NCBI GenBank assembly: GCA_037176845.1
Contig: JAYKXP010000009.1
Coordinates: 434,001 to 498,000 of the forward strand
Origin: Paramarasmius palmivorus
Lineage: Eukaryota; Basidiomycota; Agaricomycetes; Agaricales; Marasmiaceae
Length of the DNA: 64,000 nt
Reading direction: 5' to 3'
A program made the translations under genes and the position numbers. Positions 22,660-46,883 of the stretch are shown here, piece by piece. The notes under the pieces were generated by a model. The model worked only from the letters and a program-made list of their open reading frames with translations. It had not been told where the DNA came from and made no database searches. Numbering within the stretch: the stretch's first letter is position 1; each line of letters starts with the position of its first letter.

Positions 22660-23438
22660 GGTAGGACAGACCTCTCCAAATATGTCAGAGCAGTATAGTG
22701 CTGCATTGCAGTCGATTGAATCATTCGCCAGAAAAGTCTTGACTAAGCTTGGTCTTCCCGTGGTTCCAGCCACCCAAGTAAAGAGTTTCGACGTGCTCCA
22801 TGGTACGCAGTCACCTGAATTGTATTGCAGGATGATGTACACTGACAGGTACCGTGGCGATAACAAGATTTGACACCTCCATGGTGAGACCTGGGGTAAG
22901 TAAAAATCATATACGCGGAGATGGGCGCTCGAGCGAGACCTGACCAAAGGTCAGAAGACAACTCGTTGACAGTCCTGAGATGATAAAATGCTCACCTGCG
23001 ATAATCAAGTCACAAAGTGCTCAATCTGCTGTCTGGCCTGAAGATCCCGATTGAGTAACCGGAACAAGAAGATGCCGATGCAAAGCAGTTACTATTGTGA
23101 GCATTTCTAATGATCGCTTGAGTGCAGTGTGCTGAGAGGCTAAACTTGGGTATTCCAGAACCCAGGGTTTGACTGGTGAGATGAAGGATGCGCGGTGTTC
23201 AATGGAGCATTGGAGGGTTTTCATCTTCAGCGGTGCATTCTTTCCGAATCGAGGAGTTGTATCCAATAGAATGAAGGGTCTTCATGCGTAAACGAAGTCT
23301 GATCAAACGGTTACGAGTCCGAGTTTACGAGGAATCGTCTTGTATCTATTTTTAGAACAAATTTTTGTGCAGCCAGCTCTAGTGAACGACTGTAGCCAAA
23401 ATGTGGGAACCTTCCTTATTTGGGTTAATTAAATTTTC
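22660..23438. other. Transition region before the AT-rich island
   Basis: No gene is supportable. The base composition shifts from mixed to strongly AT-rich near 23,340-23,440. I find no obvious target-site duplication or terminal repeat at this edge. Confidence 0.4.
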
Positions 23439-23465
23439 AAACATCGGAGTTCCGATGTTTTTGTT

Positions 23466-23600
23466 TTAATAAAATAAAAAATAAAATAAAATAAAATAAA
23501 ATAAAATAAAAAAATAGAATAAAAATAACAGAATAAAAAATGAAACATCGGAGTTCCGATGTTTTTGTTTTGATAAAATAAAATAAAATAAAAAATTAGG
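23466..23600. repeat. AT-rich (TAAAA)n low-complexity tract
   Basis: Tandem AAATA/TAAAA units, interrupted by one copy of the 22-nt inverted repeat with arms AAACATCGGA and TCCGATGTTT. An identical arm pair lies just before the tract, so the two inverted repeats bracket most of it. Confidence 0.8.
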
Positions 23601-23905
23601 AGCAGAGCCCACTCTGTGATGCTTAGTGAGACACTGGGTAGTTATCCAACTAAGTTACAGTGACGACATAAGAACGTCGTGTTTTGTGACTGATGTCAGA
23701 TAATTGATTTGGAGCACCAATATAAAATAGACTTCATTTGCAGAGCATTTCTTGTCGACGATTCAAAATTTACTTGTAAAGAATTGCAATCTGCATCCTT
23801 TGAATAAAGAACTTAAAATGTCGGGAGACTGGATTGGATAGAGGAAAAAAAAACAGGGAGCTAATGGAATTCCAGAAAAAAAGCCAGTGTTTACAAGGCT
23901 ACAGG

Positions 23906-23997
23906 CGTCCCAGCCAGGAATTGAACCCGGTACCTCGTTAAAGGAGCGCGAAACAGTGTGTTCATAACGGCGGCTATTCCATTAAGCCACTGGGGCC
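23906..23997 (-). repeat. tRNA-like segment 1
   Basis: On the minus strand starts GGCCCCAGTGGCTTAATGGA, with a good A box (TGGCTTAATGG) and a B box (GGTTCAATTCC) flanked by a T stem. The acceptor arms pair at only about five of seven positions and the anticodon region is long (compatible with an intron or decay). It may be a relic tRNA or a tRNA-derived element. Confidence 0.55.
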
Positions 23998-24413
23998 TTG
24001 CAACTGTTTGCAAAAATATCGGCAATGATGCCATTTATGCTTCCTTTTTTAAAGGTGGAAGGGTCGTTGGCCACTCGCATTGGAGTTCCATAATATCAAA
24101 GGGAGATTGAATAAGAAAACCTCGGTGGACCGATATGCTCATTGAACACGTCAAACGTTAAGATATCGGATCTCCGATGTTTTGAAAACAGAATTTTCGC
24201 AGCCCAAAATAGTAAAAACAAACAGCAACCCACTGGGCGTTGAAGAGTAACAGCCTAATTGTTATGAGATCTACGCAGTATGCAGTTTCAAATTCACTGA
24301 AATCATAAAAAACTAAATGTGCTAAAGTCTAGTGTTGGGAGACTGAATTGAATAGAGAAAAAAAAACCGGGAGTCTGAAATTCCAGAAAAAATCGACGAG
24401 CTTCCCGGACAGG

Positions 24414-24508
24414 CGTCCCAGCCAGGAATCGAACCTGGTACCTCGTTAGGAAAGGAACGTGAAACAGTACATTCATAACGGCGGCTATTCCATTAAGCCA
24501 CTGGGGCC
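24414..24508 (-). repeat. tRNA-like segment 2
   Basis: Same family as segment 1, with a perfect T arm (CCAGG-TTCGATT-CCTGG). A possible anticodon stem CGTTA/TAACG encloses a 27-nt loop, which would need a 20-nt intron to give a normal loop. The acceptor stem is imperfect. Confidence 0.55.
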
Positions 24509-24875
24509 TTGCAACTGTTTGCAAAAATATCGGCAATGATGCCATTTATGCTTCCTTTTTTAAAGGTGGAAGGGTCATTGGCCACTCGCATTGGAGTTCC
24601 ATAATATCAAAGGGAGATTGAATAAGAAAACCTCGGTGGACCGATATGCTCATTGAACGTGTCAAACGTTAAGATATCGGATCTCCGATGTTTTGAAAAC
24701 AGAATTTTCGCAGCCCAAAAACAAACAGCAACCCACTGGGCGTAACAGCCTAATTGTTGAGATGTACGCAGTATGCAGTTTTAAATTCACTGAAATAAAA
24801 AACTAAATGTGCTAAAGTTTAGTGTTGAGAGACTGAATTGAATAGAGAAAAAAATCGGCGAGCTTACCGTGCAGG

Positions 24876-24971
24876 TGTCCCAGCCAGGAATCGAACCCGG
24901 TACCTCTCGTTAGGAAAGGAACGCGAAACAGTACATTCATAACGATGGCTATTCCGTTAAGCCACTGGGCC
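24876..24971 (-). repeat. tRNA-like segment 3 (decayed)
   Basis: Third copy, with one C missing from the 5' acceptor strand and TGGGACA at the 3' side. The A and B boxes remain recognisable. Confidence 0.5.
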
Positions 24972-25197
24972 TTGCAGCTGTCTGCAAAAATATCAGCAAT
25001 GGTGCCATTCTCTTTCCCTGCAAATGTAACGTTTGTTAAAATGTCGGAGCTCCGATGTTATTATTCTCGAGCTCTGATATACTGGTTAAAATAATGTAAA
25101 AACATCGGAGCTCCGACATTTTGACAATAAATGGAGTTGTCACTATTCAATTCAAGCAGAATTAGGGTTTAAAAAGCAGGAATTTCAGAGGTCATGC

Positions 25198-25281
25198 GTC
25201 ACTTCAGGGAATTGAACCCTAAACCACTCCATGAAGCTTAGTAAGGGAACACCAGCTGCTATCCAACTAAACTACAGTGAC
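25198..25281 (-). repeat. tRNA-like segment 4
   Basis: On the minus strand begins GTCACTGTAGTTTAGTTGGA. Six of seven acceptor pairs form (GTCACT with AGTGAC), the D-arm A box is good and the T arm is AGGG-TTCAATT-CCCT. The anticodon arm does not fold normally, so it is more likely a tRNA-derived element than a working tRNA. Confidence 0.5.
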
Positions 25282-25372
25282 AGGATTCACAAAATGACAT
25301 ACTAATTAAAGCTGTATGAGTGGAATGCCGATGAATTTGAACACTGACTCACACCTTCGTTTGATACGCCAA

Positions 25373-25453
25373 TCTCTGTAGTTTAGTGGTAGAATGCTCT
25401 CTGTTCCTTATTAATCAGGTCGGAGACGTCTGGAGTTCGATTCTCCGCAGAGG
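25373..25453 (+). tRNA. tRNA-Gly(TCC)-like gene with a short intron
   Basis: The 5' half TAGTTTAGTGGTAGAAT is typical of glycine tRNAs. The acceptor arms TCTCTGT and GCAGAGG pair fully if G-U pairs are allowed, the T arm is GGAG-TTCGATT-CTCC, and an anticodon stem TCTCT/GGAGA holds a 19-nt loop containing TTCC. That fits anticodon TCC plus a 12-nt intron. The first base being T is unusual for a nuclear tRNA, and relatives nearby look decayed, so it could be a pseudogene. Confidence 0.45.
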
Positions 25454-25833
25454 TGCTCCTGGTACTGTATGTTTCGCTTTTGTATTCTGAAGTTTACAAG
25501 GAATTGTCCTGTATCTTTTTTTAAAAAAAGCAACAGAACCTGGCTTGTATGGCTTTATCAATAAGTCAGGCTTCTGCATGACTTAGACTTTGTTTCAAAT
25601 TCCAGCATAAGGATGCTGATTAGCTAGGTCTGTTTTAATGATGGCAGGCTGCAATTCTTTACAAGCAATCAGTATAATTGAAGTTGCACTTAAATTCACA
25701 AAAATGCGTAATAGATGCATTCTCTTTACATAGCTAGTCTGTAATGAGTATAAGCAAGTCATTTCAAGAAATAATAGTCAAGAAATTATGTTCTGGTAAT
25801 ACAGTTCCAAGAGTTAGCTCCTTCAGCAATTAT

Positions 25834-27013
25834 TCATCCAACATGCATCTTCTTTAGTTGTCTGGCTGTTTGGCTTTCTATTTCTTCCCAATTCCCTATT
25901 TTCCTCTTTAGTTGAGGTCGGGTGGGCCGAGAAGCATTCTGTTGGGCCAATGCAGCATCCTGTGAAACAGTTAATCAAAGCCATACAAAATGGAAAAGGC
26001 CATACCAAGGTAAAGGAAGAGTCCAGCATAGTAATTGACCGAAGTGTAGGAAACGTCTTATAAGGCGGTGTTCCGCTCTTACCGATCGGTACCGTTGCGA
26101 GTGTAAATTGGACTTCAACATGGTCCCCAGCTCGGAATACCGATGGATTAATGAAGGAAAACCTGTTTTGGTTTGATTTTAACAAATATCAAGTGAAAAC
26201 AAATTGGGCCTACTCTTGTGAATCTTTGCCTAAGTCTTTACATTGCCAATACTCCACAACATTGTCTGCAGTGTGTTTATAGTCATCACCAGCCAGATTT
26301 CGCAAGTGCCGATTTGGGTCAATCACGTCCGTAATCTCGATTGCTTCAGAGGCAAATTTCTTGTGGATCAAATATCGGTTGGAAAGAGTCAGAGTTTCTC
26401 CATTAGAATTCTGGTCAATGCAAGTCATGGAAGTGCTGTGTTCAGCCGAAATGTTTCTACGAAGTATTTCATCGGCAATCCGAATGCCATCAAGGGACTT
26501 GGTAAATATCGGGTCTCCGAGACCGGATAAAATTACACTCTGCCTCAAATGGGAGGGATTGCAGTGTCTGGATTTGTGAAGTTAGACATTTATTCTTTTT
26601 GAAACAAAGAATAAAGACTTGACTTTGCTGGACCGTTTTTGAAGGGTGGAAGGTCTGCAGTTGCAATGATTCCATGAATGATAAACACCAGCTCTTCCTC
26701 CCCTGAAACAAGCACCCATCCTCGATCGTCGTTGCTCTTGCAGGTATTCAGATGCTCTGACTAAACAATGCTTTCATTTTCTATTTCAATCAAACAACAC
26801 AGCACTACTCACAGGCGTCAATGTGTGAATGTTAATCTTTGCTCCTTCTGCCATCGTCCTGATTTCAACAAGGTTTCTCAGAGCCTGTTCTGCCATTGGA
26901 GGTTTAATAAGAGCTAAGCTAAGAGCAATAAACCAACCACTTACTGGCTCCTTCAATGTTGTAGGTGGTTTGCATGCGTAGTGGTTAATGTAAAAGGAGA
27001 CTTTTAGTCCCAT
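25834..27013 (-). CDS. Unrecognised island protein A, six exons
   Basis: Six exons, 27013-26945, 26884-26813, 26760-26624, 26567-26214, 26162-26006 and 25959-25834, join in one frame to about 304 residues with introns of 46-60 nt. No catalytic motif is visible. Notable stretches are RGWVLVSGEEELVFIIHGI near residues 60-78, a hydrophilic helical middle, then INPSVFRAGDHVEVQFTLATV and a basic tail (RPTRPQLKRK). Similar hypothetical proteins with an xxGDxVExxF block are, to my recollection, common and unnamed in Agaricomycetes near transposons. It is transcribed away from protein B (27423), suggesting a shared promoter region. Four inverted-repeat cores lie within the gene. The start at 27013 is the first in-frame ATG; an upstream exon is possible. 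Confidence 0.6.
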
Positions 27014-27422
27014 CACTTGCAACGATCCCTGCTAGTATTGATGGGTCATATGAATATCCATATTTGGCATTTAAAATTTTCTGCTTCCTGAAAATTTTAA
27101 AATGAATAGTCTATACCCTGAACGACCTGTAAAAAAATTTTCATGGTCAGGCGGTAGTAGTTCTGTACCCTGAAAAATCTCATGAAAAAAAAAAGTAATC
27201 AGCTGGTATGGCTATTACCTATTTTAGATTAGTGGTATGCTTACTTACATGCTTCTTTGATGGTGTCCTTACCATATCTAGACACCCTCCGACTGTTTTG
27301 GATTAGTGTTTAATGTTGATTCCTTGGTCTCTTCTGAGCTTCTATCAATGACATAGCGCATCATGTATCTATGCTACTTTATATACGTTGCTTTACTGGT
27401 TTTCCCACCAGTCCATTCCTCC

Positions 27423-30400
27423 ATGTCTCCCTCAAAGAAGAACCCTCAACCTCCTCACACTCCAGAAGCTCCTCTCGAGTTTTCTCTTGATAGTGCTTCT
27501 AAGCAACATCTTGAAGTTGGGCCAGGAGTATCAGTTCAGTGAGTTGTGTTTAATCTAGAATTCAACAGGGTACTGACTTGATTTTAGTGCGCCACTCATG
27601 CCTTCAGTCCAATATGCCAGACAATCTCCTCCCCGACAATTTCTTGTCCAATCTGAAGAACCACAGCCTTTGCCATCTAAAAGAAAGTGGGTGTTAACTA
27701 CATTTTGTGATGTGTTGTTTGTCGATGCTTTTTGCACAGATCGATTCCAACAGCCAAGGCTCAATATCTCATCCAGAACAATGACAATGAGGAATCTCAG
27801 TATGTTTTTGTTATTTTTTATGTCCGAACCATTGCCAATTCAATTCAGAATTGCTCGTAACATTTTTGAAAGTAATAAGGGTCTTGAATTAGAGTAAGTG
27901 CATATCTAAAGTCTTAAGTCTCTGATTGGCCTTATTTTTTGCCAGGTGTATCTCGGTCGGTGAACCTGAAGACCAAGATAGCTCCGGCAATCCGAATATT
28001 TTTGAGTTCGTGTTTACAGATTGTATTTTTACCTTCACTCACATATGGGTAGATCTGCACGCAAAGAACACGAAGGCGCCTTGTCTAATGACAAAGGAAA
28101 TGAAGGTGCCTCTTCTACAGAGTAAGTTTTCATCAAGGAAAAAAAATGCAATTAATCGGTCTTCCGTAGAGCTTCAGACCCTTCTAAATGGGAAACTCCC
28201 CTTGGCAACTTCCGCAAGAAGGATGAAAAAAAGTAAGACATACTGACTTTTCTGAAACAGCTGCTTACTCTTGGAAAGGCCATTTCGTCCTACTGCCTTG
28301 CACGGCTTTAATCCGGATGCCCTTCGGGATGCCGTCAATAAGAGTTCGTAAGTATTGCTTGTTGAGCAAGGTGTGCAGTAACTAATATTCAAGCAGGTCT
28401 GCCTATCAAACCCCACCTCCTACTGTGAAGAAGAGAGCACGATCTCCGTGGGTTTCTTTTTATTGTTGTTACTAATACAAAATAATATTTCTATTAGCCA
28501 AGATGAAGTGGAGTCTCCTTCCCCAGTCAAGAAACGATTGGACAACCAGGACTTAGGCAGTCCCGTTCCAAAGGCTAATGAGTCTAGGTAAGTTATAGGA
28601 TGGTATGAACAAGGAATTGGCTGATGTTGTATAAGCTCAATTCCAGCTACTTTTGTGCTTACATGGCCAGATGGACGCCAGGTTAAGGTTCAAGAAGTTC
28701 TTGAAAAGTGCACCTTGTTTTTTTCAAAATTTAAACTTGTGCTTAGTTTTTTTTTAGATCGCCAGCCGATCTTCCTAGCTCTGTAGGCGGCAACAACAGT
28801 CAACGGGGCACCAATGATCCTATTCATACTTCTAACAGCAATGTTCGGAAGACCGAATCTTCTGCTCCAACGGCACCCGCTTCCAAACAGGCATTCGGCA
28901 CCGATGATTCTATTCATACTTCCAACAGCAATGTTCGGAAGACCGAATCTTCTGCTCCAACAGCACCCACTTCCAAACAGACATTCGACATTCCACCGGC
29001 AATCCCTTCATCTCCAGAACCTGAGTATGTTCCTGCTGAACCTTGGACCTTTGAACGGGACCCCGAAAAGGAAGCAGAGGTGGAAAGATCTTTCATGGAG
29101 CTGACTGTTCCTCCTCTTGTTCGCTTCACCGCTTCAATTCAAAAGTTCGACTCTCAAACTCAAAGGAAAATGATGAATCGGTATCATGCAAAGTACTTGT
29201 TTTTCTTTCATATACATACATGTCTAATATTTTTTCTCCAGGGCAAAATATAAGGATTTTCCAGAGAACATCAGACAAATTTTCAAGCCTCGCTGGCAAG
29301 ATAGGTTGATGCGAGACTTTTATTTGAAGTCTGCAGCACAGCCTCATTCAGCACTGTATGCTTCTGCTCATCCTCCATTATTTTTAATTGACTTAATTTT
29401 TGTAGTTTGAGACCTTCGATGTTGGTGCCTTATACGATTGCTACATCCGCCGAGAAGAAGACCCGAATTTTTGCAAGCTTCCATAGAGTTGTTGAACCTA
29501 TGTCTCCTGTAGCAGCAACGTAGGTGCATGCACTACTTTTAGCAAAATTCTCTCTAACTTCATTTAGAACTGTATCTCGCATGTTGCAGTTCACTAATTA
29601 CAGCAATGTTGTCAACCTTTCTAGGTGTCCTGCTGCTTTCATCGGTCACATCTCAGGTAGAGAGTACCTTTCCATTGGGGAAGGTCCTGCTCAAGGTCAA
29701 AACCTTGTTTCAATCGTTACGGGGGTTGTGTATTCCAGTCACTTGGAAAAAGCAGTAGGGGGTATAAACAAGAATGGTAACAACGTCGGTGGGGCCAAAA
29801 AGATTTGGGTTCAGCCATTTGGTCAAGAGATTCAGCTGTTCGAAGCAGTTCTTGGAACGGCCCTTCGTCTGCCTGTTATTCAAGGCCCAATTGCCAGTGG
29901 TGCTTTGTGTTTTAAGACTAAGAATGAAGGATTTGAACCTAGTGAGCCTGTTACTTTTTCCAATTAATTTGCTGCCCCTAACATTATATATAGTCTCTGC
30001 CCCAACTCCTTGGGAACTTAGTGAGAACAGCAGCACCAAAGCTCCAAGGCCCAAGAAGCTATACAAAATTGGGTCGACTCCTTTCACTCTAGCTGATGCA
30101 ACTGGTTAGTGCCTTTTCTGATTTTTTATTCTAAGTTAACTTTTTCTACAGTACCAGTTTATGATGGCAGAAGTAACAGTTCTCGAGGTTGCACAGGTTT
30201 TCGAGGAAATCCCCAAGATTGGGATCATTTGACTGAGCTGGCAGAATATCCTTTGTATGTCTCAAAGGGTGACATTGTGTCTGTTGGACACACAATCTCT
30301 TATCGTTCTAACCCAGGCTCTGAGTCAGTGGTTTTCAATCTCCTTTTTGTTATTGTGTTGGGTCAGAAGGGAAACCCCTCGGATGCCGGAGAAGGGAGCG

Positions 30401-30438
30401 GGATAGAAACTTCCACATCTGATACTATGGATTTTTGA
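27423..30438 (+). CDS. Unrecognised island protein B, about sixteen exons
   Basis: Sixteen exons can be joined in one frame from ATG 27423 to the stop at 30436-30438, about 712 residues. Introns are mostly 46-61 nt; the one at 28588-28757 would be 170 nt and is the weakest join. The N-terminal third is Pro/Ser-rich and charged, with basic patches (KKRARSP, KKRLD) like nuclear localisation signals. A 30-residue unit containing NVRKTESSAPTAP is repeated twice in exon 11. The C-terminal 300 residues look globular (RCPAAFIGHISGREYLSIGE; FVIVLGQKG near the end). No enzyme motif is recognised. The end pattern, GDxVxVGHTI then VFNLLFVIVLG, recalls the GDxVEV block of protein A, so the two may be distant relatives or partners. 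Confidence 0.6.
28807..28986 (+). repeat. Two tandem 90-bp repeats inside protein B
   Basis: Two direct copies with a period of exactly 90 nt (30 codons), each containing ATGTTCGGAAGACCGAATCT and therefore one CGG-N4-CCG core. A few third-position and other changes separate the copies. The frame is kept. Confidence 0.85.
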
Positions 30439-30649
30439 ACTTCTGTATTGCAATACTTCTTGAACACCCTGTAACTCAACTTTGTTTAAGTAAATGGGCT
30501 GTTTGTACAATTAGTTAACAATGAATTAAGCCCAGCTTCTGGTTCAAAGAATATTAATTTGGCATATCCTAAGAGCAACAGCTTAATTATTGTGGGATCT
30601 GATTGCAAAATGAAAAATGTAAAAAAAAAGCAAGTACAGGGGGGACTAT

Positions 30650-30732
30650 GCTCAAGCTGGGAATCGAACCCAAGACTTGAAATGACTTATCAGCTTTGTC
30701 AGTTCAATTCCTCATCCACTAGACTATTGAGC
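30650..30732 (-). repeat. tRNA-like segment 6
   Basis: On the minus strand starts GCTCAATAGTCTAGTGGATG. Six acceptor pairs form (GCTCAA with TTGAGC), the T arm is TGGG-TTCGATT-CCCA, and an anticodon stem GGAAT/ATTTC encloses a long loop containing TTGAAC. It could be an intron-bearing tRNA or a tRNA-derived element; base 33 of a normal loop does not fit. Confidence 0.45.
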
Positions 30733-30839
30733 TGATTTGAAACGCACATCAAGATATCGAATTGCTATGCAATTCTATGTCTCAGATAAATTCGCCGAAA
30801 TCATAAAAGGCAGGGAAACTAAAGTGCACGAGTCCTTGG

Positions 30840-31020
30840 AATTGAAGAATTTGCCGAAATTCTTCGGAACTCCGACGTTTTGAGGTTTAGAGGCATATCG
30901 GTACACCGAGGTTTTGCTTTTGCAACTTGCAATTGAAGAATTTATAATTTATTTGCCGAAATTTTTCGGAACTCCGACATTTTGAGGTTTAAAGGCATAT
31001 CGGTGTGCCGAGGTTTTGCT
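30840..31020. repeat. Tandem duplicate carrying two pairs of TCGG-N4-CCGA
   Basis: Two imperfect copies (about 30840-30925 and 30930-31025) of a block: TTGCCGAAATTCTTCGGAAC, then TCCGACGTTTTGAGG, then GGCATATCGG-TACA-CCGAGG. Each copy has two inverted-repeat cores about 34 nt apart. It lies just upstream of the TET/JBP gene and could be a regulatory block. Confidence 0.7.
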
Positions 31021-31186
31021 TTTGCGACTAAGCCTGATGAGCGGATTACCGATGTTAAAACCATCAAAATTCATCAAAGTAATTGTAATTTGAAATGCCA
31101 AACCATATCTGGAAGATTCCGAAGGCTGTAACACAATCCTCAAATGGAAGCTTACATAATTATTCACCTCTTATTCTCTTACCACC

Positions 31187-33444
31187 ATGTCCTATGTGCG
31201 TCGATCACTGGAAGCTTCTGCTTCTGCAGACTTTCCCCAAGATACATATGGAGCACTTCTAGTGTCTGGGTTTGATCTCTCTGACTTGTTGTTAACAAGA
31301 GCTAAACACGAAAACCTTCAATTAAAAAATATCGATCCCAAACACCAATGGTCGGATTCTGATAAGTAAGCCAGCTTATAGAATTAAACCAGCATCTCAC
31401 TAACTAGAACATAGCACAATAATGGTCAATACCAAAATGGAGCCAAGATTAAAACACCAACATGACTTTGAGTAAGAACTGTTCCTCAGCACTATTTTTG
31501 GTACTTAGATCAGTTACAGTGAGTTGGGAATAGAAAATTTGGAAAGGAACGCCGAACACTTAAGGTTTAGCTTTTAAGATTTTGACAAAATTCAAAATTG
31601 ATGTTAAATAGATCTCCACTCTCAGAAAACACTCGATCAGATACTGATCGCTCCATACAACTTGCACTAAATTCACCTCTGGAATCTCCTCGGCACTCCG
31701 ATGACAATAATTCCGTGCTATCTGATATAATAGACCTATTCGACTTGGATTCAAGTTCAAGTTCAAGAGTTGGAAATTCTCCTGAACAAAGTGATGACAA
31801 TTCTTTGTTATCAGATATATTAGATCTATTCGACTTGGAATCCATTTCAGGTTCAAAACTTGGGGATTCTGCTGAACAAAACAATTCTTGTTCAGATATC
31901 TTGGATGAATTTTCTGATAGCTCTGGTAACAATCAATTTGATTATTTATCTATTGGTTTTACTTATGCTATCCCATTAGAATCAAATTCAGAAGAAACAA
32001 ATCTTTCTCTTGACCCAGAATCAGATATATGGCTTCTAGAGTTGCTGGATAATTTTTTCGGTGATCCGGTTGACGATCTACCTCTAGATCTTCATCAAGC
32101 TCTTTTAGAACTTCCTTCTGTGTTATACAGGTAGCCTTTTGCAAAATATTTTATTTGCCAATGCTTATCTTTTTTAGTACAGTTAAATCTCTTGGGGATT
32201 CCAACATCAAGACTAGTGTATATATCCCTAAAAAGGGCTTCTTCGACATAACTAAAGATGGGAGGGTGTCAAGCCCAGGATGGTTGGGAGTGAATGTGCC
32301 TAGAGACATTCGAAGTGCAATTACCAGCTATCTCTCACAAGGAGGGAAATTGGATCATTTAGTGCTCATTTATTATGAGAGGTGAGCTTCTATATAATAC
32401 AATGATACTTTGTTTATTGTTTCACCAGGGAAGCAACAAAAATTTCTGATGGTCAACGAAGGGTTGTAATCTTTCGATCCTTCATTACACCATTCATGGA
32501 ATGGAGTCTACTTCCCAGAGTTATTCAGGAGGTCCAAGAGTACATGGATAGGACTTCCACAGTATCTGAAAGATTAAGATCCAAGAATTTGAGAGGCTCT
32601 TATTGGATAGGGATGGCAGGGTGGGATCGTAATAACAAAAAGGCAAGCAATACATTGAAATATCTATGCAAGTTTTATTGATTCCTATCAGGTTCCTACA
32701 AAAACAAAATGGCATATGGATCACCAATCAACAATTGAAGAATTTTTCCAACCAGGTCGTGTGTTCTATGAACTCACGGAATACGGTTGTACTCTTCTCT
32801 GCAAGGTTTTCCCAAAGATTGCAGAACGTTACAGAAAATGTTCAGCAAAAATGAAACACCGATATGGATTTTCAGCCCCTTTTGGAGGACTTTTTTTTAA
32901 CTTCTGTGTTAATGGAATCATGGCAGGTCATCCCAGAGTCAAATGCCTACCACATATAGACTTCAAAAACTTGGCACTGGGTGTTTGCATGATATATGTG
33001 TATGGTCATTTTGATCACAAAGAAAAATGTTGGATAGTCATATGGGAAGCTGGAATTGCTTTGGAACTTCCTCCAGGAGTATTTCTTATATACCCATCAT
33101 CACTCTTTCTTCATTTCAATGTTGACTTGGATGGTAAGCAAATTCATGATATATGAAACAATTTTAATGACAAATAAACAGATTTAAAGTTTGTGGTCAC
33201 TGATGGCGAGCCTCCTACTCCTGCCAACAGTGCTCCTCTTTGCCCTGCATGTGGAAGCTCAAATCCAAATCATATTCAAAATTGGAAGGATGGCAATGGA
33301 AGAGGATCATTAGTTTGGTTCAACCAGGCCAGTCTTTTCCAAAGTGCAGAATTGGGATTCAATACCATTAAAGAAGCGAAAAGAGAAGGAGTTCCGACAA
33401 AATGCAAGGTTGGAGCTACAGATGCATTTGATACTTATTGGTAA
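31187..33444 (+). CDS. TET/JBP-type 2-oxoglutarate/Fe(II) dioxygenase
   Basis: Predicted DNA-base oxidising enzyme of the TET/JBP superfamily (the oxidation of 5-methylcytosine or thymine is known for family members). Eight exons join in one frame: 31187-31365, 31415-31471, 31520-31564, 31612-32130, 32178-32381, 32429-32642, 32692-33133 and 33182-33444, giving 640 residues. The intron at 32643-32691 has a GC donor. Residues 1-260 are acidic and low in complexity (repeated LSDILDLFDLES). The catalytic core is in exon 7: HxD as PHIDFKN (H494, D496), the strand IVIWEAGIALELPPG, and the distal His in LFLHFNVD (H547). The 2OG-binding Arg is probably R594 in GRGSLVWFNQAS, after an insert with CPAC. 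All metal ligands are present, so it should be active. It lies 157 nt upstream of the RepHel gene on the same strand. Confidence 0.75.
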
Positions 33445-33533
33445 ATCGTTATGATCACATGTATCACATGACTTATAATATCACATGAGTCCTTTGGTGG
33501 CTGTAACATGTCAATATAAATAAACAACAAAGG

Positions 33534-33542
33534 CATATAAAA
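33534..33542 (+). promoter_or_regulatory. TATA box of the RepHel gene
   Basis: CATATAAAAAC lies about 60 nt before the chosen ATG at 33602, in the short spacer after the TET/JBP stop codon. Confidence 0.5.
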
Positions 33543-33601
33543 ACTGCTTGTTAAAATGCCTTGTTTCCCACGTCTTTGATCCCATCTTACCGCCTACCAT
33601 C

Positions 33602-36600: not shown

Positions 36601-39600
36601 AATCTAAATCCAGCTGCAGCTGCCAAATTTTTCCACTTTATGATTGAAATATTCTTACAATGCGTATTAGGAGTAAACAGTAAAGACAGAGGAATTTATG
36701 GTCATCACTTAGCACACTATGGTACAGTAGAACAACAAGGTAGAAATACTTTACATCTTCATCTATTACTTTGGATTATCAACTGCTTAACTCCCCAGGA
36801 AATAAGAGATAGAATAATGGATCCTCAAAGTGATTTTCAACAAAGGATAATTCAATATTTTGAGTCTGTTTTTACAGGGGACTTTCTTACTGGCACTCAA
36901 GATCAAGTAGTAACTCGAGTTGCTGCTGAAAAATCTATGAACACCACTTATGTAGATCCTATTATGTCGCTTCCTGAAATGCCACCACCAATATGTCATC
37001 TTCATCAAGCTAATAACCCTGTAAATTCTGAACTAGTAGTTGTACCAGATTGCCTTATGTGTAACTCCTATCAACAATGGCATAGAAAATATCAACTTAC
37101 AGTTGACGACATTATTGCAAAATCTAATATTCATGACTGTAACTATGGAAAAAACAAAGATGGGACTACAAAGAAGAATTTGCAATTTAAACACTGTTGT
37201 GACAACCCTCAGAAAAAATGTAAAGCTAGATTTCCAAGGCCAATATCTGAATTCACTGTAGTTGATGACACTGGTGCAATAACAATGAAAAAAAGAGAGC
37301 CAATGATTAATACCTATTCCCCTGCCCTATCCTATTTAATGAGATGTAATACAGACGTTACTCAGCTATGCTCAGGAACTGCAATTAAAGCAGTAGTAGT
37401 GTATGTGTCTGACTACATTACCAAATCTTCTCTCAAAACACATGTTATCTTCAATGCTATAACAACCACTTTTACAAAAACACCTGAACTTCTAGTGGGA
37501 GATGAAAGCAGGAGAGTCAGAGCTCGTAAAATACTAACTAAAGTTGTAAATCTTCTTGGTACAAAGATGGAAATGGGTGCACCTACTGTTTGTATGTATC
37601 TTCTCGGTAATCCGGATCATTACACAAGTCATAAATTTCATCCATTTTATTGGAGACAGTATGTACAGCATGTTCGAAGGTGTGTAGATAATGAAGAGGC
37701 AGATGAAAAAGTTATGATTTTAAAAAAGCAAAACAAGATTATTGGACTATCTCCCGTTTATGATTACATTTACAGGCCTCTAGAATTAGAAGACATGTCT
37801 CTGTATGATTTTATTCGGTGTGCCGAAAGAGTCAAAGCTAAAACCATTAAAATAGAGACATCTGATAATGTACTTTTAGATGATGAAGATATTAAAGAGC
37901 GGAATGCCGATGATGAAGAAAATCTCTATCAAGAATATAAAGAGGACGACTCGATTGAATATGATACAAACAACAATCCTAAAAGCAGACTGAGATTCCA
38001 CCCTGACCATCCCCTTTACAAAAATTATGCAATGAAACTAACAAAATATAGCGACTTGGATGTTGTTAACTTTCTGGGCAAAGACCCTCCTCGGAGTGAT
38101 CAAGGGGATTATAACTACTATTGCTCTACTATGCTTACCTTCTTTAAACCTTGGAGATCAGGATTTGATTTGAAAAGTCCTGATGCTGTTAGTTGGGCTT
38201 CTGCTTTTGATCAACATACTTTTACTACTAGACAACTTCAACTTATGAAAAATTTTAACATTAGACACGAATGTCTTGATGCTAGAGATGACTACCATGC
38301 TCAATTAAAGGCTAGCAGTAACCTTGAAATTGATGACTTAGATCTTCCTGGTTTCAAACAAAGTAAAACCTTTGACGATAGTGATGATGATTGGGAAATG
38401 GATGAAATGGGAAACATGCAAAATCTAGATAATAAGGATAATCCTACTTCATGGGATTGGGAAAATCTAGACATAGGAAAACTTTTTCACAAAAAATTAG
38501 AAGACATGAAACAAATGCACAATCTAATAAAAAGAGTAGGTTGGCAAAAGCCATTAATGGAATCTAACTCCAATGTAACTGTGCCCAAAGACTATGAGTC
38601 CATTGACATTGACATTCCCCATAAAAGCCCAAATCAATGGAAAACGGTACTAACTGCTAAAAAACAAGAAGTATTGGATTCCAGAGCAAATGAATCCCAA
38701 AATAATGAAACCAAGTCTGATAGATTAAGTAAGAGGTATGTGAATCAGGTTGAAGTAACAGATATGGGCTATTTAGTAAAGCAGCAATTGGCAGAACAAA
38801 ATCAAGAAGAAATGCTACAAACCATTGTTAAAATCTATGAATTGAATGAAGAACAGGAACGTGCTTTTAGAATAATTGCACAGCATGCTGCTTTATCCAA
38901 CAGTGATCAACTAAAAATGTACATTGGGGGAATGGGTGGCACAGGGAAGTCTAGAGTATTGCATGCTGTTATACACCTATTCAAGCTGAAGGGTGATCCT
39001 GGTGGGCTTTTAGTGTTAGCACCCACAGGAAGTGCTGCTGCATTACTAGGTGGATCAACATATCATTCAGTCTTGGGCTTAAATGAAAGAAATAAAAAAA
39101 AATCATTAGCAAAGGTTAGTGAGAGACTACAAGCTGTGAAATATATTTTTATAGATGAGATTTCTATGGTATCTGCTCGTGATTTTTATAAGATATCCTC
39201 CAAGCTGAGCCAAGCAAAAAATGCAGAAGATTTACCTTTTGGAGGCATGAATATGATTACAGCAGGTGATTTTGCTCAATTGCCACCAGCAGTAGGTGGA
39301 GAAACTGTTTCCCTGTACAGTCAAACTATTGGTCAGTATGGAACCTCTTTAAGTGATCAAGAAGCTGCTATGGGTAAAGCTCAATGGCATGGTTTTACTA
39401 CAGTAGTTATCCTTAGAAAAAACATGAGGCAAACCCTAGAAACAAATGAAGACAAAAAATTACGAACTTGCTTAGAAAACATGAGATACAAACAATGCAC
39501 TGCTGAAGACATTGCATTTTTGAATAGTAGAATAACTTCTAATGTTCCTGGTAAGCCTTCCATTTGTAATAATTCATTCAGAAATGTTCCAATTATCACT

Positions 39601-41505
39601 GCATGGAATGCACATAAAGATGAAATTAATGAAATAGGATGTAAAAGATTTGCAACTGAAACTGGACAACAGCTCAGTCATTTCTTCAGTGAGGATCTGG
39701 GGGTATCACCAGGAAAAGAAACAGTGGCTGATAAACTATTGAAAAACACCAAGAAAATCATAAGACTTACAAAGATTTCAGAAAGCATTCAAAGACATTT
39801 ATGGACTCTTCCTAACAGTAATTCTAGTGAACAGATACCAAGTAAAATATCAATATGTAAAGGAATGCCGATAATGATCAGAACCAATCTTGCCACAGAA
39901 CTCAGTGTAACTAAAGGGCAAGAAGGCAAAGTACACAGTTGGACTTCTAGAACAGGAAAATATGGAGCTCAGCATCTAGATACTGTCTTTGTTGAACTTA
40001 CTAATCCTCCAACTCCTGTTCAACTACCTGGATTACCACTAAATGTAGTTCCAATACCTACATCTCAAAATGAAATTACTGTAAAGATAAAAAATGACTG
40101 GGGAGTAACTATCAATCGTAATCAAGTAGAAGTTCTACCTTGTTTTGCAATGACTGACTTTGCATCTCAAGGAAAAACTAGACCTTACAATCCTGTGGAT
40201 ATTCAAAACTGTAAAGACTATCATGGCATCTATACTGCACTTTCAAGAAGTGCAACAGCAGATAGCACTCTTATACTTCAAGCTTTTGATCCTAATAAAT
40301 TGAAAGGAGGAATTAGAGGCTCTTTAAGACAAGAGTACAGAGAATTAGAAATGTTGGATAACATTACTGCATTACGATATAAAGGCTGCCTACCTAAAAC
40401 CATAGTAGGTCTATATAGAGGACAGCTTATCTCCACATTTAGAAAATGGAAAGGATGGAAATATAATCCAGAGCACTTGCATTCCTCCTTGCAGTGGACC
40501 ACTGAAAATGATTTTATGGAAACAACATTGCATGACTATTCATGGAGAACTGTTAAAGCAAACAGAAAAGCAAATAATCTAAAAACTAAAACTGCCATAA
40601 ACGTTCCTACAAATCCAGACAGTACTATAAATCTTAAAAGAAAGCATGATGAAGAAACACCTTCCAATATTAAGAGAATGAAACATAATAACACTCATAA
40701 CTCCAGTGATTTATTAGCAGGGCCAATGTGGTCTCAAAACAGCTGTGCATATGACTCAGTTTTATCTATTTTATTCTTTTATTGGAAAAACAACATCAAT
40801 ACTGAAATTCTATCCTATCAAAATCCTGTCATGGAAGCCTTAATTCAAATGTTTAAACAAGAAGCTGCTAAAACAATGTCTATTAATCTAGTGAGAGATC
40901 GCTTTAGAACCATTTTATGTACAGCCTTTCCAAATACTTTTGTACTTGGGCAATTTGCCAGTGCAAATGAAATCATTCATGCACTATGTGACCATTCTAT
41001 CTCAATTCTAACAACTTACTATGAGTGTTCCAACCTTCATCGTTTTAATAGACAGGAAGGAGGAAATGCCAATTCATTTGTTGGGTGGCTTGGAGACTAT
41101 GGTTTTCGTTCAATACAAGAATGGATTTCAAACAATCATTTTCTCTCCAGCCACCGCTGTCCAGTCCACAATTGTGGAGAAAAACTAAATATAATACCAA
41201 AGTTTACCTCTCCTCCAAAAATCATTGGATTTGACTTACCGCTGACATCTAATTTCTATATTGATTCTGAAATTTCTCTAGTCATTCAAAACGAATCATT
41301 CAGATACAAACTCATAGGAGTTATTTACTTTGGTGACAATCACTTCACCTCCCGTGTACTCAATGCCAATAACGATGTTTACTTTTATGATGGAATCGGA
41401 AATCATCATTTCAGCTACAACGGTAACTTGACAGAACGGAATCTTCAACTTCAAAACTGCCGAAACAAAATAGCTAATGCTGCAATATATGCTTTACATA
41501 CATAA
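33602..41505 (+). CDS. Helitron RepHel protein with C-terminal cysteine-peptidase-like domain
   Basis: Rolling-circle transposase-helicase of a Helitron. Four exons join in frame: 33602-33653, 33700-33774, 33827-33970 and 34022-41505, about 2,584 residues. The long last exon begins with an unrecognised region, then a DUF6570-like Cys domain (CAVCGQL; ALAKGFWLGDVP). Numbering below counts the open frame from 33814. Helitron_like_N/Rep: LFPYGVGG near 758, HUH motif as TLHLHLLLW near 980, Tyr pair in YVSDYITK near 1197. The PIF1-like helicase follows: Walker A GGMGGTGKS near 1706, Walker B FIDEISM near 1782, and a late motif TALSRSA near 2140. The C-terminus has a Cys box QNSCAYDS near 2310 and a His box GDNHFTSRV near 2510 like papain-fold ubiquitin peptidases. 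All key residues are present, so the element could be autonomous. The 17-residue hydrophobic first exon is doubtful. Confidence 0.85.
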
Positions 41506-41509
41506 AAAT

Positions 41510-42479
41510 CTACTTAGCAGCTTTCCTCTTTCGGACTACCGGAATTTCAACAAAAGGAACGAGTTTCCGAATTTTTTCTGAGACAACATCGGCACCTTCC
41601 AAAGTCCGAGAAATTTGTCCTAAAAGCTCCACGCACGCCTTGTCGCTGATATCCCGATTTTCCAGTTGTGAAAGAAGGCAATCCAAACGCTTGGCGCGCT
41701 CTTCACCGGCCACCCGAATTTCTTCAGATACCTTGTCAATTTCTTCCGCCATGGTAGTCAAACGCTCTCGATCTAATTTGCCTTGGTAAAGGACTGGATC
41801 AAATTTTTTTTTAAAAAAAAACCAATCTTACCGGCCTCCGTTTTAGATAAAATACAATGAGCCGATCCTTCAATGAAAGAAACCTTAGCGTCGCTCTCTG
41901 TATCACTCTGGAAAATTTTCAGTATCGCCAAATGTGCAAAGACTACGCGTACCGTTTCCAAGATTTCAACAGTTTCTTTCCCACTCGGCATCCGTGCATT
42001 CGCTGCCTTTGATCGGGTAACCGCACCACGCTGAGACGGCGCACCGGAATCACTCTAAAAATTCTGAGCACCAAAAAAAAAAAACCACAGTTGAGACCTA
42101 CTGTTTCTGAAATTTCAATTATTTCCTTTTCACTCGGCTGCCGATGTGGCTGAATATCTACGATCTTGGATCGGATAGCCGACCTAGTGCGGGATGATAT
42201 GTCGGAGTCCCGTTCTACGGTAGGCTGAAAGTTGTTTTGTAAAGTCGCATTAATAGCTTCGCCGAGGGAAGACCACTCAGTGCCGATTTTGGTTCTAAAA
42301 TAACAATCAGCCCTGTGTCAATAAGTCGAACACCCTTACTTTTCACGGGTGGCTCGAAAGATGTCCGGTTGTCGGTGTTCCGATCGAGTGCCCTTTGGCC
42401 GATCTTTTTTCACCACTATTTTGTCTTCGTAGGAATCAGAGTCTGGCGTAGAGCTGCGCATCTGTTTGCGTGTGGGCAT
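41510..42479 (-). CDS. Small charged island protein G1
   Basis: Four exons, 42479-42340, 42294-42102, 42054-41832 and 41781-41510, join in one frame to 275 residues. The N-terminus MPTRKQMRSSTPDSDSYED resembles the PTPDF...SDDE opening of its neighbours G2-G4. The C-terminal part (EEIDKVSEEIRVAGEERAK; LLSQLENRDI) should form a coiled coil, and it ends in the basic VRKRKAAK, a likely nuclear signal. There is no cysteine cluster. Seven inverted-repeat cores lie in or just around the gene. It is convergent with the RepHel gene (4 nt between stop codons) and divergent from G2. Function unknown; a nuclear partner of the zinc-cluster proteins is a guess. Confidence 0.7.
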
Positions 42480-42613
42480 AGTGCTGAATAGCTGAATAAC
42501 GCATTCAGCAACAAGGTATTTATACTAGAAAGAACACCATTCCCACGTGTATAGAAAACCGTGGAATGTCCTAGAATACTGCGTGACTAACCAATACGTA
42601 ATAGTCTGAAAAG

Positions 42614-42620
42614 TATATAA
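42614..42620 (+). promoter_or_regulatory. TATA box of G2
   Basis: TATATAA lies 34 nt before the ATG at 42654. Confidence 0.55.
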
Positions 42621-42653
42621 CGCTCTACTTTTTGCTTGAACTTGCTCCAAAAA

Positions 42654-43480
42654 ATGCCAAACTTCATCCGTGAACCTACACCCGACTTCTCTCAAAACTT
42701 TCCCACGGTTTCTGATGATGAAAAATGGATCGATCCCGGTGATGCGATAACAGCTGAAGACCTCCGCGCAAGAACAAAAATTACAAATGCCAACTTAGAC
42801 AGGCAATTTCGGAGGGATATGCAGAAATTAGAAATTCAAGACGCCATTCGAAATCACCGAAAAGAGCAGACTTCGAAAGAGGAAACATTCCTCGCTGAAC
42901 AACAAGCTCATCGGATCGCCGTCGATATTTCCCCCTCAATCGCTAGCCCGAAAAAACAAGCAAAAAAGGTATGCCGATTGACTGCTCGCTAAACCAAACT
43001 AACTGGTGTTATAGGCCGGTCCCTCAAAACCAAGGTTAGCTAAGCCCGGAAAGGCGAACGAAAAAGGCAAACACATTTCAAATGTGCTACATAACCACGG
43101 CTGACCGACAATAATTAGCCTGCGAACAGTGCTCAAGCAAGGGAATCGTTTGCACTAAAACCAACACCCGAGCTAACTACTGCTATCCCTGCATGAGCCA
43201 TGAGTGCAGTCTCTCCAAAAAATTGAAACTCTCGGCTGCCGATGAAGTACCGATTTCAGTCCAAGTGACTGAGAAGTTGGAGGAAATCGTTCAAATGACA
43301 GAGAAACGCAACACAGCTCGGCAAGCCGAGTTCAAAAAGATGGTCGACGGAGCAACAGAGTTACTTCAACACAGGCTCGTAGTGCGAGACTCGATTAATC
43401 GACTGCTCAGGGATATCGAAAAAAGAAGCGGTGGTCCGAGCGAGAGGAATGCCGATCGAGACGCGATGCAAACAGACTAA
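42654..43480 (+). CDS. Zn2Cys6-like coiled-coil protein G2
   Basis: Three exons, 42654-42968, 43015-43066 and 43119-43480, join in one frame to 242 residues; the second intron has a GC donor and ends TTAG. The opening MPNFIREPTPDFSQNFP followed by VSDDE is shared with G3 and G4. A charged helix fills residues 40-90. Six cysteines follow in the order C124-x2-C-x6-C-x9-C-x2-C-x4-C152, which is the Zn2Cys6 pattern of fungal transcription factors except for the short last loop (4 instead of 6-8). Behind it is a coiled coil (EKLEEIVQMTEKRNTARQ) that could dimerise. Such proteins bind CGG triplets. Length is far below that of normal Zn2Cys6 factors, and no fungal_trans domain is present. Confidence 0.7.
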
Positions 43481-43682
43481 AGGATTCTTTTCTTGACCGT
43501 ATGCGCTATTTGTACTTAGTTATTAACTACACGGACAACCGAAGCGTAAGCTTAAACAATCCTACGAGTGTTAGCTGTCTCGGTCTGCCGATGAAGTCAA
43601 ACAAACACCTTATCATGTGACACGAGGCTGTAGAAGGCCGTAGAAGAAAACGCACAATTATGTAATTTCTAACACCCACCCG

Positions 43683-43693
43683 TATATATAAAG
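43683..43693 (+). promoter_or_regulatory. TATA box of G3
   Basis: TATATATAAAG lies about 45 nt before the ATG at 43737. Confidence 0.55.
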
Positions 43694-43736
43694 ACCAAGA
43701 TATCTAACCCTCTAAATCACTCCCCCCCTTTCAACC

Positions 43737-45010
43737 ATGGTTTTCGAGCGAATTCCAACTCCTGATTTCGCAAAAGAGTTACCCGAAATATCTGAAGATG
43801 AAGTTTGGAAGGACGGCGAACCGACGACACTGGAACAGCTTCAGTTAAGAAATACGATACGAAAAAAGAACTTGGAAAAGGAGGAACGCCGAGAGTTGCG
43901 ATCGCTCGAAATCAATCAAAAAAAGTCGGAGCACCGAAGAATGGAAAATATCCGGATGGCCGAAGAAAAGAAACGCGCCGAAACAGCACGGAAAGAGCGT
44001 GAAGAAAGGGCTGCCCAGAGAGAAACTCGAAAGAAAAACCTCGAGCAGCAGGCTGCGACCAAGGCCGCGAGCAAGAGCGCGCCTCGGGCTGCCGAGGATG
44101 GTGGCGATGTGGAAGTAGTCGAACCGCCGCAAAAAAAGAAACGCCTAGTAAGTTTTTATAAAAGCTACTGAACTGTTTGTTTGGACCTTTCACAGACAAA
44201 GACAAAGCCGCAAGAATTCGTTGTCCCGGAGGAACAAGAAATGCAGCTGCTCGACCATGGCCATCTTCTCCGGCTTCCCGAAGGATCTAAGTCGATCGAA
44301 AAACTAAAAAAATTGGTAATTTTCTCGGTTCTCCGGTCTTCAAACCCACCAACTCGTTTACAGGATGCCTATACGCCAGAACAGCGCGTCATCTACAAAG
44401 AAGGCCACACCGACGGGCTGGCCGAAGCTCAAACTACCACCAAAAAGCGTCAAAATCGACAAGAAAAAGGCAAGGGCAAGGAGAAGGAACCGCCGTCGTC
44501 TGAAGTCTATAACCCCCGTAAGTTCATCGATCGGCTTACCGACCTATAACCCATTCTCCCCCAGCTTGCGAACACTGCGCTAAGACCAACAAACCGTGTA
44601 ACAAGGCCAGTTCAAAATCGCATGCCTGCTATCAGTGCAACACGAGCAAAATCAAATGTAGCTTAGTCTACGGCGAAGTCGAAGCCATTGCTCGGCTGAC
44701 CGATTCGATCGACAGGCTCGCAGAAAGAATCCAACAAGCCGATGATTCTTTAAGCGACAAGTTTGACCGGTTCTACGCCTGGCTACAAAACGCCGTCGAT
44801 ACCTTCGGTGTCCGCGATGACGAAACTGTATCCCTTCTCACCCGACTACTCGAATCACGCACGACCGATATCGATGGAAAAGCCGGTGAAGATGGCAGCA
44901 GCGACGGTACCGACGGGGAAAACAAAGACCCTGAAGACGACGACAATGAGAATTCCAATGACGGGTCCGCTAACGGGGAAGACAACGACGACGATGCCGA
45001 TGCCGAGTAA
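43737..45010 (+). CDS. Zn2Cys6-type coiled-coil protein G3 with acidic tail
   Basis: Four exons, 43737-44147, 44196-44315, 44364-44517 and 44565-45010, join in one frame to 376 residues. It opens MVFERIPTPDFAKELPEISE, then has a long Glu/Arg/Lys-rich helix to about residue 115 and a basic patch (PPQKKKR). The cysteine cluster C230-x2-C-x6-C-x9-C-x2-C-x6-C260 fits the Zn2Cys6 consensus exactly. It is followed by a helix with hydrophobic heptads (AIARLTDSIDRLAERI) suited to dimerisation and a tail of about 45 residues made mostly of Asp, Glu, Asn and Gly, like an acidic activation domain. The layout (DNA-binding cluster, coiled coil, acidic tail) is that of a minimal transcription activator. 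Eight CGG-N4-CCG cores lie within the gene. Confidence 0.75.
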
Positions 45011-45167
45011 TTTTTTCTTTTCTTTTGGACTTGCACTTCAACGGTAGAATTACATCTTGAACTTCGTACGTACCCGTCAATTCGGCAGGCCGATCTACAC
45101 ATACCACGCACGCAGAGTACGCATTTACAGCCGCATCTTGAACACTCGCATTACTGTAGCACGTCGA

Positions 45168-45330
45168 AAATAGCACATCTCAAACGAATCTTCGGACTAC
45201 CGATTTAATATCAAAGATGCAACAGGCATTCTCGGACATCCGACTGTAATACGTACAAAACAGCACACTACAATCTTCGGACTACCGATGTAACATCAAA
45301 ATACAACAAGCATTCTCGGACATCCGACAG
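45168..45330. repeat. Tandem repeat with four TCGG-N4-CCGA motifs between G3 and G4
   Basis: Two imperfect copies, with the same motif pairs in the same order: TCGG-ACTA-CCGA (45192, 45287) and TCGG-ACAT-CCGA (45232, 45316). It lies about 130-290 nt upstream of the G4 start codon, where regulatory sites would be expected. Confidence 0.8.
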
Positions 45331-45405
45331 CATTAAGATTTCTGTCATATGATTAAGGTACCACCAACACGTAAACCAATTATGTCATCACAAATAGGGA
45401 GAATC

Positions 45406-45413
45406 TATATAAG
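45406..45413 (+). promoter_or_regulatory. TATA box of G4
   Basis: TATATAAG lies about 50 nt before the ATG at 45459. Confidence 0.55.
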
Positions 45414-45458
45414 ACCTGACATTTCAGTCGCACCCTTCCTTCCCCACCCACACCCATC

Positions 45459-46384
45459 ATGTCTGCCCCTACACAATTCGTTCGCCAACCTACTCCAGAT
45501 TTCACTCCCCAATTCAACCCCGTCTCCGATGATGAAGACACGGCACCGTTTGCAGAGAGCCAGGACCCGGCGATTCTCAAACGATACTACGCGCTTAAAA
45601 AAAAGAACAACAACCGACAGGAACGCCGAGACGAACACGCGCTACAAATCCGAATTCTTACGGACAACCATCGAAAAGAACAGAAACAAAAACAAGCCGA
45701 TTTTGAGAAGGAGAAAGAGAAGTTGAAAAAAGAAGCCAAAAAGGTAGAGAAAGTAAACAAGGAGAAGAAACAGGATGCCAAGGAAAAGACCCGAAAAGAA
45801 AAAGGCGCAGGTAGCAGTGCTCAAGTAAGTTCTTTTTCAAAGTCAAACGCAAACGCGATCCAACACGACCTTTCAGTCGGCCCCCGAAAAGTCACCGGAA
45901 CCCGAAATGCAGCCAATCCCAAAACCCGAAGCGAGTAAGCTGACTTTCTCGGTATACCGATTATTAACTAACTCCTTCAGTCCTGGGCGCCCTAGGACAC
46001 ATCGTCAGTGCCATCGATCGAGGCACTTACCAACAACAACAACGAGCCAACAAATTCGACGAAGTCGTGAGCTTGATGGCCACTAAATTTGATGCCGTTG
46101 TAGCGTCGTTGGAGGGCATACGCTCTCAAATGAACAAAAACTCGGATACCGAAACTAAGGCGTTGGAAGGCATACGCTCCGAGATCAAAGAGGCTTCCGC
46201 TGCTGTAGCAGCAACAATGGAAGGACTATCCTCCGAAATCAAAGAGGCCTCTGCCAGCGGAGCCTCAGCCTCCAAATCCTTCGAACGGCTGTCCGATGCC
46301 TTGCTGCAGAAACGGAAGGATCGGGACTCCGAGTCTATGGCTGCTGACGAAAACTCCAGGCCAAAGAGAGCTCGCACCGGCTGA
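45459..46384 (+). CDS. Coiled-coil island protein G4
   Basis: Three exons, 45459-45824, 45877-45934 and 45981-46384, join in one frame to 275 residues. The opening MSAPTQFVRQPTPDFTPQFN followed by VSDDED matches G2 and G3, so it is a paralogue in its N-terminal half. A long Lys/Glu helix follows (residues 60-120). There is no cysteine cluster. The C-terminal part contains the repeated block LEGIRS...EIKEAS (three loose copies), a coiled-coil region, and ends in a basic KRARTG. It could act by pairing with G2 or G3, for example as a form that dimerises but does not bind DNA; this is inference. Confidence 0.7.
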
Positions 46385-46592
46385 CCGATATATTGCACGT
46401 TTTTTTGTATCGCATTGTATATAACGCTATTTTCTTGTTACTGTAGACATCGCGTAAATCTACAATAAACCGACGTTACTCGACACGCTACATTTCCTTG
46501 CGGGACTCCGATATCTATATAGTAAGCAATAAGTGCCACACCAAACCGCCTACTCAACAGCCGTCTTTTTTTGATTTCGGAACACGAACATC

Positions 46593-46883
46593 TTACGTGT
46601 TAAAACAATAACCTCGGGCGCACTTTTTTTCCCTCGGAGCGCCGACATATGCTATCTCTTCGGCAGCCCGATTTTCTTCGTGAGACGAGGACTCGACCCC
46701 GCCAGCAGACCCTGCTGGCCCACATGCTACAAGTAAGACTGTCCCTAGCGCTCTAAACTGGTAATAGCTCACCTCTGTTGTTGTATGCGCTGCCATAATC
46801 GGCGCTTTGATATCCGCTGCGTGGATGTGAATCTGTGGCTGATTGAGGGTCCCCTGAATGTTATGAGGACGCGGTATCGCCAT
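46593..46883 (-). CDS. Possible small gene at the island edge
   Basis: An ATG at 46883 opens MAIPRPHNIQGTLNQPQIHI. A 44-nt intron (46772-46729) is plausible and would lead to a stop near 46654, about 61 residues; without it the frame stays open to 46593 (96 residues). No family is recognised. The 3' part overlaps two inverted-repeat cores. It may be a remnant joined to island sequence. Confidence 0.3.
   Translation of the reverse strand: MAIPRPHNIQGTLNQPQIHIHAADIKAPIMAAHTTTEVSYYQFRALGTVLLVACGPAGSAGGVESSSHEENRAAEEIAYVGAPREKKCARGYCFNT
46701..46719. repeat. Perfect hairpin at the right edge of the island
   Basis: GCCAGCAG-ACC-CTGCTGGC: arms of 8 nt, loop of 3 nt. It sits 30 nt beyond the last inverted-repeat core. 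A GC-rich hairpin near a 3' end is a Helitron feature, but the sequence behind it gives CTAC rather than the usual CTRR. Confidence 0.5.

Follow-up and report, generated by a model that had tools for sequence, protein, structure and literature searches.

The window analyzed here is a 64,000-nucleotide stretch of Paramarasmius palmivorus DNA (contig JAYKXP010000009.1, positions 434,001 to 498,000). An earlier note, made from the letters alone, had implied Rhizoctonia as the origin, which was wrong. The window contains a complete giant Helitron2-like transposon of 23,423 bp with about ten putative genes, and this element is densely marked with the inverted repeat CGG-N4-CCG. Three of its genes are in tandem, and two of these three encode Zn2Cys6-type cysteine clusters. 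The features of the element are as follows.

23311..46733, plus strand: the complete giant Helitron2-like element, 23,423 bp, delimited by shared ends and by the empty site of a relative on contig C19
23311..23339, plus strand: 5' terminus TTACGAGTCCGAGTTTACGAGGAATCGTC, with the subterminal inverted repeat CGAGTCC at 23314-23320
23445..46670, no strand: 65 CGG-N4-CCG sites, 38 of them TCGG-N4-CCGA, from motif counts and shuffles
23879..25009, minus strand: three tandem units of ~500 bp with tRNA-like sequence
25823..26581, minus strand: conserved gene, whose 26210-26581 part is common to the Helitron loci of C19, C48, C61, C46, and C47
29524..29967, plus strand: conserved gene fragment, common to the C19 element (54% identity) and C48
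32263..33446, plus strand: TET/JBP-fold 2OG-Fe(II) dioxygenase homologue in several exons with approximate boundaries; HxD...H conserved
33814..41505, plus strand: Rep-helicase open reading frame (ORF) with DUF6570, Helitron_like_N, and PIF1, the HUH-type motif HLHLLLW, and YVSDYITK
42654..43480, plus strand: listed feature
43737..45010, plus strand: listed feature
45459..46384, plus strand: listed feature
46684..46733, plus strand: 3' terminus ending in CTACAAG, with the inverted repeat GGACTCG at 46689-46695

Both ends of the element recurred on other contigs, which placed its borders at 23311 and 46733. The 29-bp left end was exact on C9, C19, C48, and at one C50 place; another C50 place matched it with 2 mismatches. 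At up to 3 mismatches, the 5' terminus matched 17 places genome-wide (control, 0). C19 shared the 3' end, as did two C50 places, where it had 1 and 3 mismatches. The terminal inverted repeats are asymmetric: CGAGTCC lies close to the 5' end, and GGACTCG lies at a distance of 38 bp from the 3' end. A hairpin, GCCAGCAG-ACC-CTGCTGGC, is located at 46701-46719 (z -2.5). The C19 relative (C19:49229-75631) is nested in a Gypsy-type element, and a second, uninterrupted Gypsy copy provided its exact empty site, GGTGG-TT-ATTAAAG, indicating insertion at T without target duplication. Because the element inserts at T, the borders are ambiguous by one base. No empty site was found in a search for that of the window copy itself. 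The terminal repeats, the 3' hairpin, and the C19 empty site are all features described for Fusarium Helitron2 in the available excerpts of PMC5148889. A copy on C48 was 98.9% identical over the first kb, 99.8-100% over 24.3-29.3 kb, and 86-92% near the contig end; this near-identical copy indicated recent mobility. Another element family with related termini had six identical 5' ends, TTACGAGTCCGAGGGTACGAGGACTCGTC, on C20, C32 (2), C83, C99, and C110, and the motif was not seen in 8 kb of C20.

Pfam domains and motifs indicated that Rep (HUH) and a PIF1-type helicase are joined in one protein of the element. The Pfam matches of the element included no endonuclease domain. By eye, the C-terminal part of the helicase ORF (40906-41505) was cysteine protease-like (NSCAYDSV...HF), with no Pfam match. 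ARAGORN reported a tRNA-Phe-like sequence at 24412-24507 on the minus strand, within the tandem units.

The proteins of the two zinc-cluster genes fit the pattern CX2CX6CX5-12CX2CX6-8C, which is the Zn_clus (Zn2Cys6) consensus, and scored below the Pfam PF00172 gathering cut-off. Dimers of Zn2Cys6 proteins classically bind paired CGG triplets, and the linker sets the spacing. We regard the Zn2Cys6-type proteins of the element as candidate readers that would bind CGG-N4-CCG. The earlier note had proposed either a protein-binding or an enzyme-recognition site; these genes support the first, and nothing positive was obtained for the second.

The element also encodes a TET/JBP-fold homologue, a relative of DNA-demethylating enzymes. 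The dioxygenase block was conserved between the window element and C19, and 41 homologues were found. The predicted structure of one homologue, P0004 (not the window protein), matched CcTET (E 4.7e-12, TM 0.40/0.53), NgTET1 (3.6e-10, 0.35/0.63), CMD1, and TET2. The iron site HxD...H corresponded to H360, D362, and H413 in the homologue alignment, and the frame in the window contains LPHIDF and LFLHFN.

The island (23311-46733) contained 65 CGG-N4-CCG sites versus 7 in the other 40.7 kb of the window; the earlier count by eye had been ~64. In 200 dinucleotide-preserving shuffles, the mean was 0.9 and the maximum was 4, confirming the claimed excess over chance. For TCGG-N4-CCGA, the count was 38 versus a maximum of 2 in such shuffles. 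When all triplet inverted repeats were scanned at spacings 0-14, CGG-N4-CCG ranked first by a wide margin. When CGG-Nx-CCG was compared with shuffles at spacings 0 to 12, spacing 4 predominated in the island; N3 was a minor class exceeding shuffles (10 sites; the note had mentioned N3-spaced relatives), N2 was marginal (5), and the remaining spacings were at chance level. Over the whole genome, TCGG-N3-CCGA, TCGG-N4-CCGA, and TCGG-N5-CCGA were equally frequent (770, 777, and 769); therefore, spacing 4 marks the island and not the genome. Tight motif clusters were found genome-wide solely at loci of this element clade (two cluster patterns tested), in agreement with the proposal of an island-specific mark.

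The fixed arms and variable spacers noted earlier were also borne out. A T/A flanked the core in 77% of the island sites, and the spacer was nearly free. Short direct duplications held eight site pairs, and paired sites come after two of the three ~500-bp tandem units. A tandem and inverted array on C50 (C50:146085-147070, L025), adjoining Helitron ends, had 11 CGG-N4-CCG in 1 kb and resembles motif growth through tandem duplication. The duplicated pairs and this array would suit an artefact of composition, tandem duplication, or expansion of a single repeat. Such an artefact is hardly conceivable, as the 65 sites had 49 distinct spacers without strong flank similarity, exceeded the shuffles, and were replicated in C19.

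The diverged C19 relative, in which the zinc genes are duplicated, has a high density of CGG-N4-CCG and also of N5. Its motif density equals that of the window element, but without CpG depletion. The motif flanks were T/A with N4 in C9, and mixed T or G with N4 and N5 in C19. Each CGG-N4-CCG site has two CpGs and the window island is CpG-depleted, which could point to the host: a host zinc-cluster repressor might target the element, or sites might survive CpG decay when bound or demethylated. We consider a host origin very improbable. Survival cannot generate 65 sites when the host flanks have 0.08-0.21/kb, C19 is equally dense without depletion, under a host repressor the element would have no reason to gain sites, and the motif tracks the element-encoded zinc genes.

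The sites start 134 bp past the 5' end and stop ~60 bp short of the 3' end. There were 25 in 23311-32200 (2.8/kb), 33 in 41506-46733 (6.3/kb), and only 7 between 32200 and 41506. This extent, together with the dense arrays at the C50 locus with element ends, would fit a role in transposition or DNA maintenance, such as loading the Rep-helicase, protecting or condensing a circular intermediate, or providing target immunity. However, the helicase-relative family is multi-copy, and of the 16 contigs with helicase relatives, the 7 sampled had neither zinc genes nor the motif. In addition, the termini and the hairpin already mark the ends, and the sites are not concentrated there. A role of this kind is therefore improbable.

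Four of the seven middle sites are inside the conserved helicase coding sequence, where 0.06 were expected from synonymous-codon shuffles (0/1000 reached 4); a 3.6-kb gap in the second half of the helicase ORF is free of sites. By the same approach, the Z exons had 11 sites versus 1.31 expected (0/1000), and the C19 helicase had 9 versus 0.14 (0/500). Two sites matched in codon and phase between the window and C19 helicases and the others did not. As so few coincide, sites were gained and lost while the density was kept. The main rival explanation is promoter-type self-regulation, in which the Zn2Cys6 proteins would be Gal4-like activators of the element's promoters and the extra sites would be redundancy or drift. 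It is rather unlikely, as 65 sites face about ten putative genes, the exon sites exceed synonymous shuffles, and those in the helicase coding sequence are far from its start.

By analogy with VANC of Arabidopsis, the sites are most likely dispersed binding sites of the element-encoded zinc-cluster proteins that serve self-addressed anti-silencing (probability of about 0.6). These proteins would bind the CGG-N4-CCG code spread over most of the element, and the TET-fold enzyme encoded alongside would act where the element's own code is read. A candidate reader of its own, a spread code, a code that shifts between relatives, and a TET-fold neighbor are together best fitted by this reading. The results suggest that the element tags its own DNA and thereby evades silencing. 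For fungal TET-encoding transposons, the question is how the oxidizing enzyme is aimed at their own copies and not at the whole genome. This element offers a concrete candidate for a targeting module, a putative reader plus a dispersed code, in two diverged versions, and the relatives without the module are natural controls.

The Gypsy-type element hosting the C19 Helitron is possibly a second independent case of a zinc-cluster ORF with its own dispersed motif. It lies at C19:39955-49229 and 79522-95174 (L008, L012, L015), with a repeat period of 15.65 kb. It has RNase H and integrase zinc domains; its class was named by eye, with long terminal repeats not delimited. It contained 29 GTG-N4-CAC (shuffle maximum 9, 300 shuffles) and 17 GTGA-N2-TCAC (shuffle maximum 3), and 6 sites were in its Pol ORF versus 1.2 by synonymous shuffling (0/1000 reached 6). 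GTG-N4-CAC was not in excess in the window and C19 Helitrons, with 2 in each. A minus-strand ORF with CX2CX6CX9CX2CX6C, which had no Pfam match, was found at C19:47921-48835 and 89978-90892. Close GTGA-N2-TCAC pairs occurred 8 times genome-wide (control, 1), 7 of them within ~210 bp of copies of this ORF; these 7 loci are homologous copies and thus not independent.

Two element types with zinc-cluster ORFs and different motifs suggest a wider strategy. We tentatively propose, as a possibility below even odds, that fungal transposons of different classes independently evolved self-address codes. Each lineage would capture a zinc-cluster gene and accumulate that protein's inverted repeat of two triplets (10 bp, spacing 4) along the element, including in coding exons, so that demethylation or chromatin opening would be directed only to itself. 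The Helitron code would be CGG-N4-CCG, to which the C19 relative, with its zinc-gene set duplicated, would add N5. The Gypsy-type element would use GTG-N4-CAC with its antisense zinc-cluster ORF. TET-encoding transposons would then have solved targeting by a sequence code.

Ppr1, Put3, and Gal4 are Gal4-type Zn2Cys6 regulators with CGG-Nx-CCG sites. The window system resembles them in having a helical region after a six-cysteine cluster, and in inverted CGG triplets whose spacing sets specificity. Among the matches listed in the open-access PMC subset (subscription papers not covered), no paper described a fungal transposon that combines a dispersed motif with a zinc-cluster reader. Judged from excerpts, Fusarium Helitron2/Helentron elements share the asymmetric terminal inverted repeats, the hairpin, and the Rep-Hel protein, but they are about 5-11 kb, whereas the window element spans 23.4 kb and has about ten putative genes (PMC5148889). 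Transposon TET genes, including that of an Agaricus bisporus Helitron2, have been proposed to counter silencing (Kojima 2025, PMC12730594). Those elements, as far as the available text goes, are likewise Agaricomycetes DNA transposons with a divergent TET/JBP-fold gene. However, "zinc" occurs 0 times in that text, its available passages mention no dispersed recognition motif, and it names HxE as the hallmark of the PE type, whereas the window protein has HxD.

The earlier note knew of no described element family marked in this way, but in Arabidopsis, VANDAL transposons have scattered short motifs to which the VANC protein that they encode binds (PMC5735166). According to the available passages, the short motif accumulates, VANC causes methylation loss, and binding is in non-coding DNA (PMC5735166, PMC10398659). 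As far as these passages go, the likeness is in a transposon-encoded protein, a motif accumulated in the element and differing between related elements, and a reach over a long element; here too, part of the motif gain appears to have been via tandem duplication (the C50 array and the ~500-bp units). The differences are a Helitron2-like element, a fungus, and a zinc cluster here versus VANDAL, a plant, and VANC there, and also the inverted repeat with a free spacer, the exon sites, and the TET-fold enzyme alongside. The likeness is meant as an analogy only. If the anti-silencing reading is true, sequence-specific anti-silencing would have arisen a second time, in another kingdom, with the window element.
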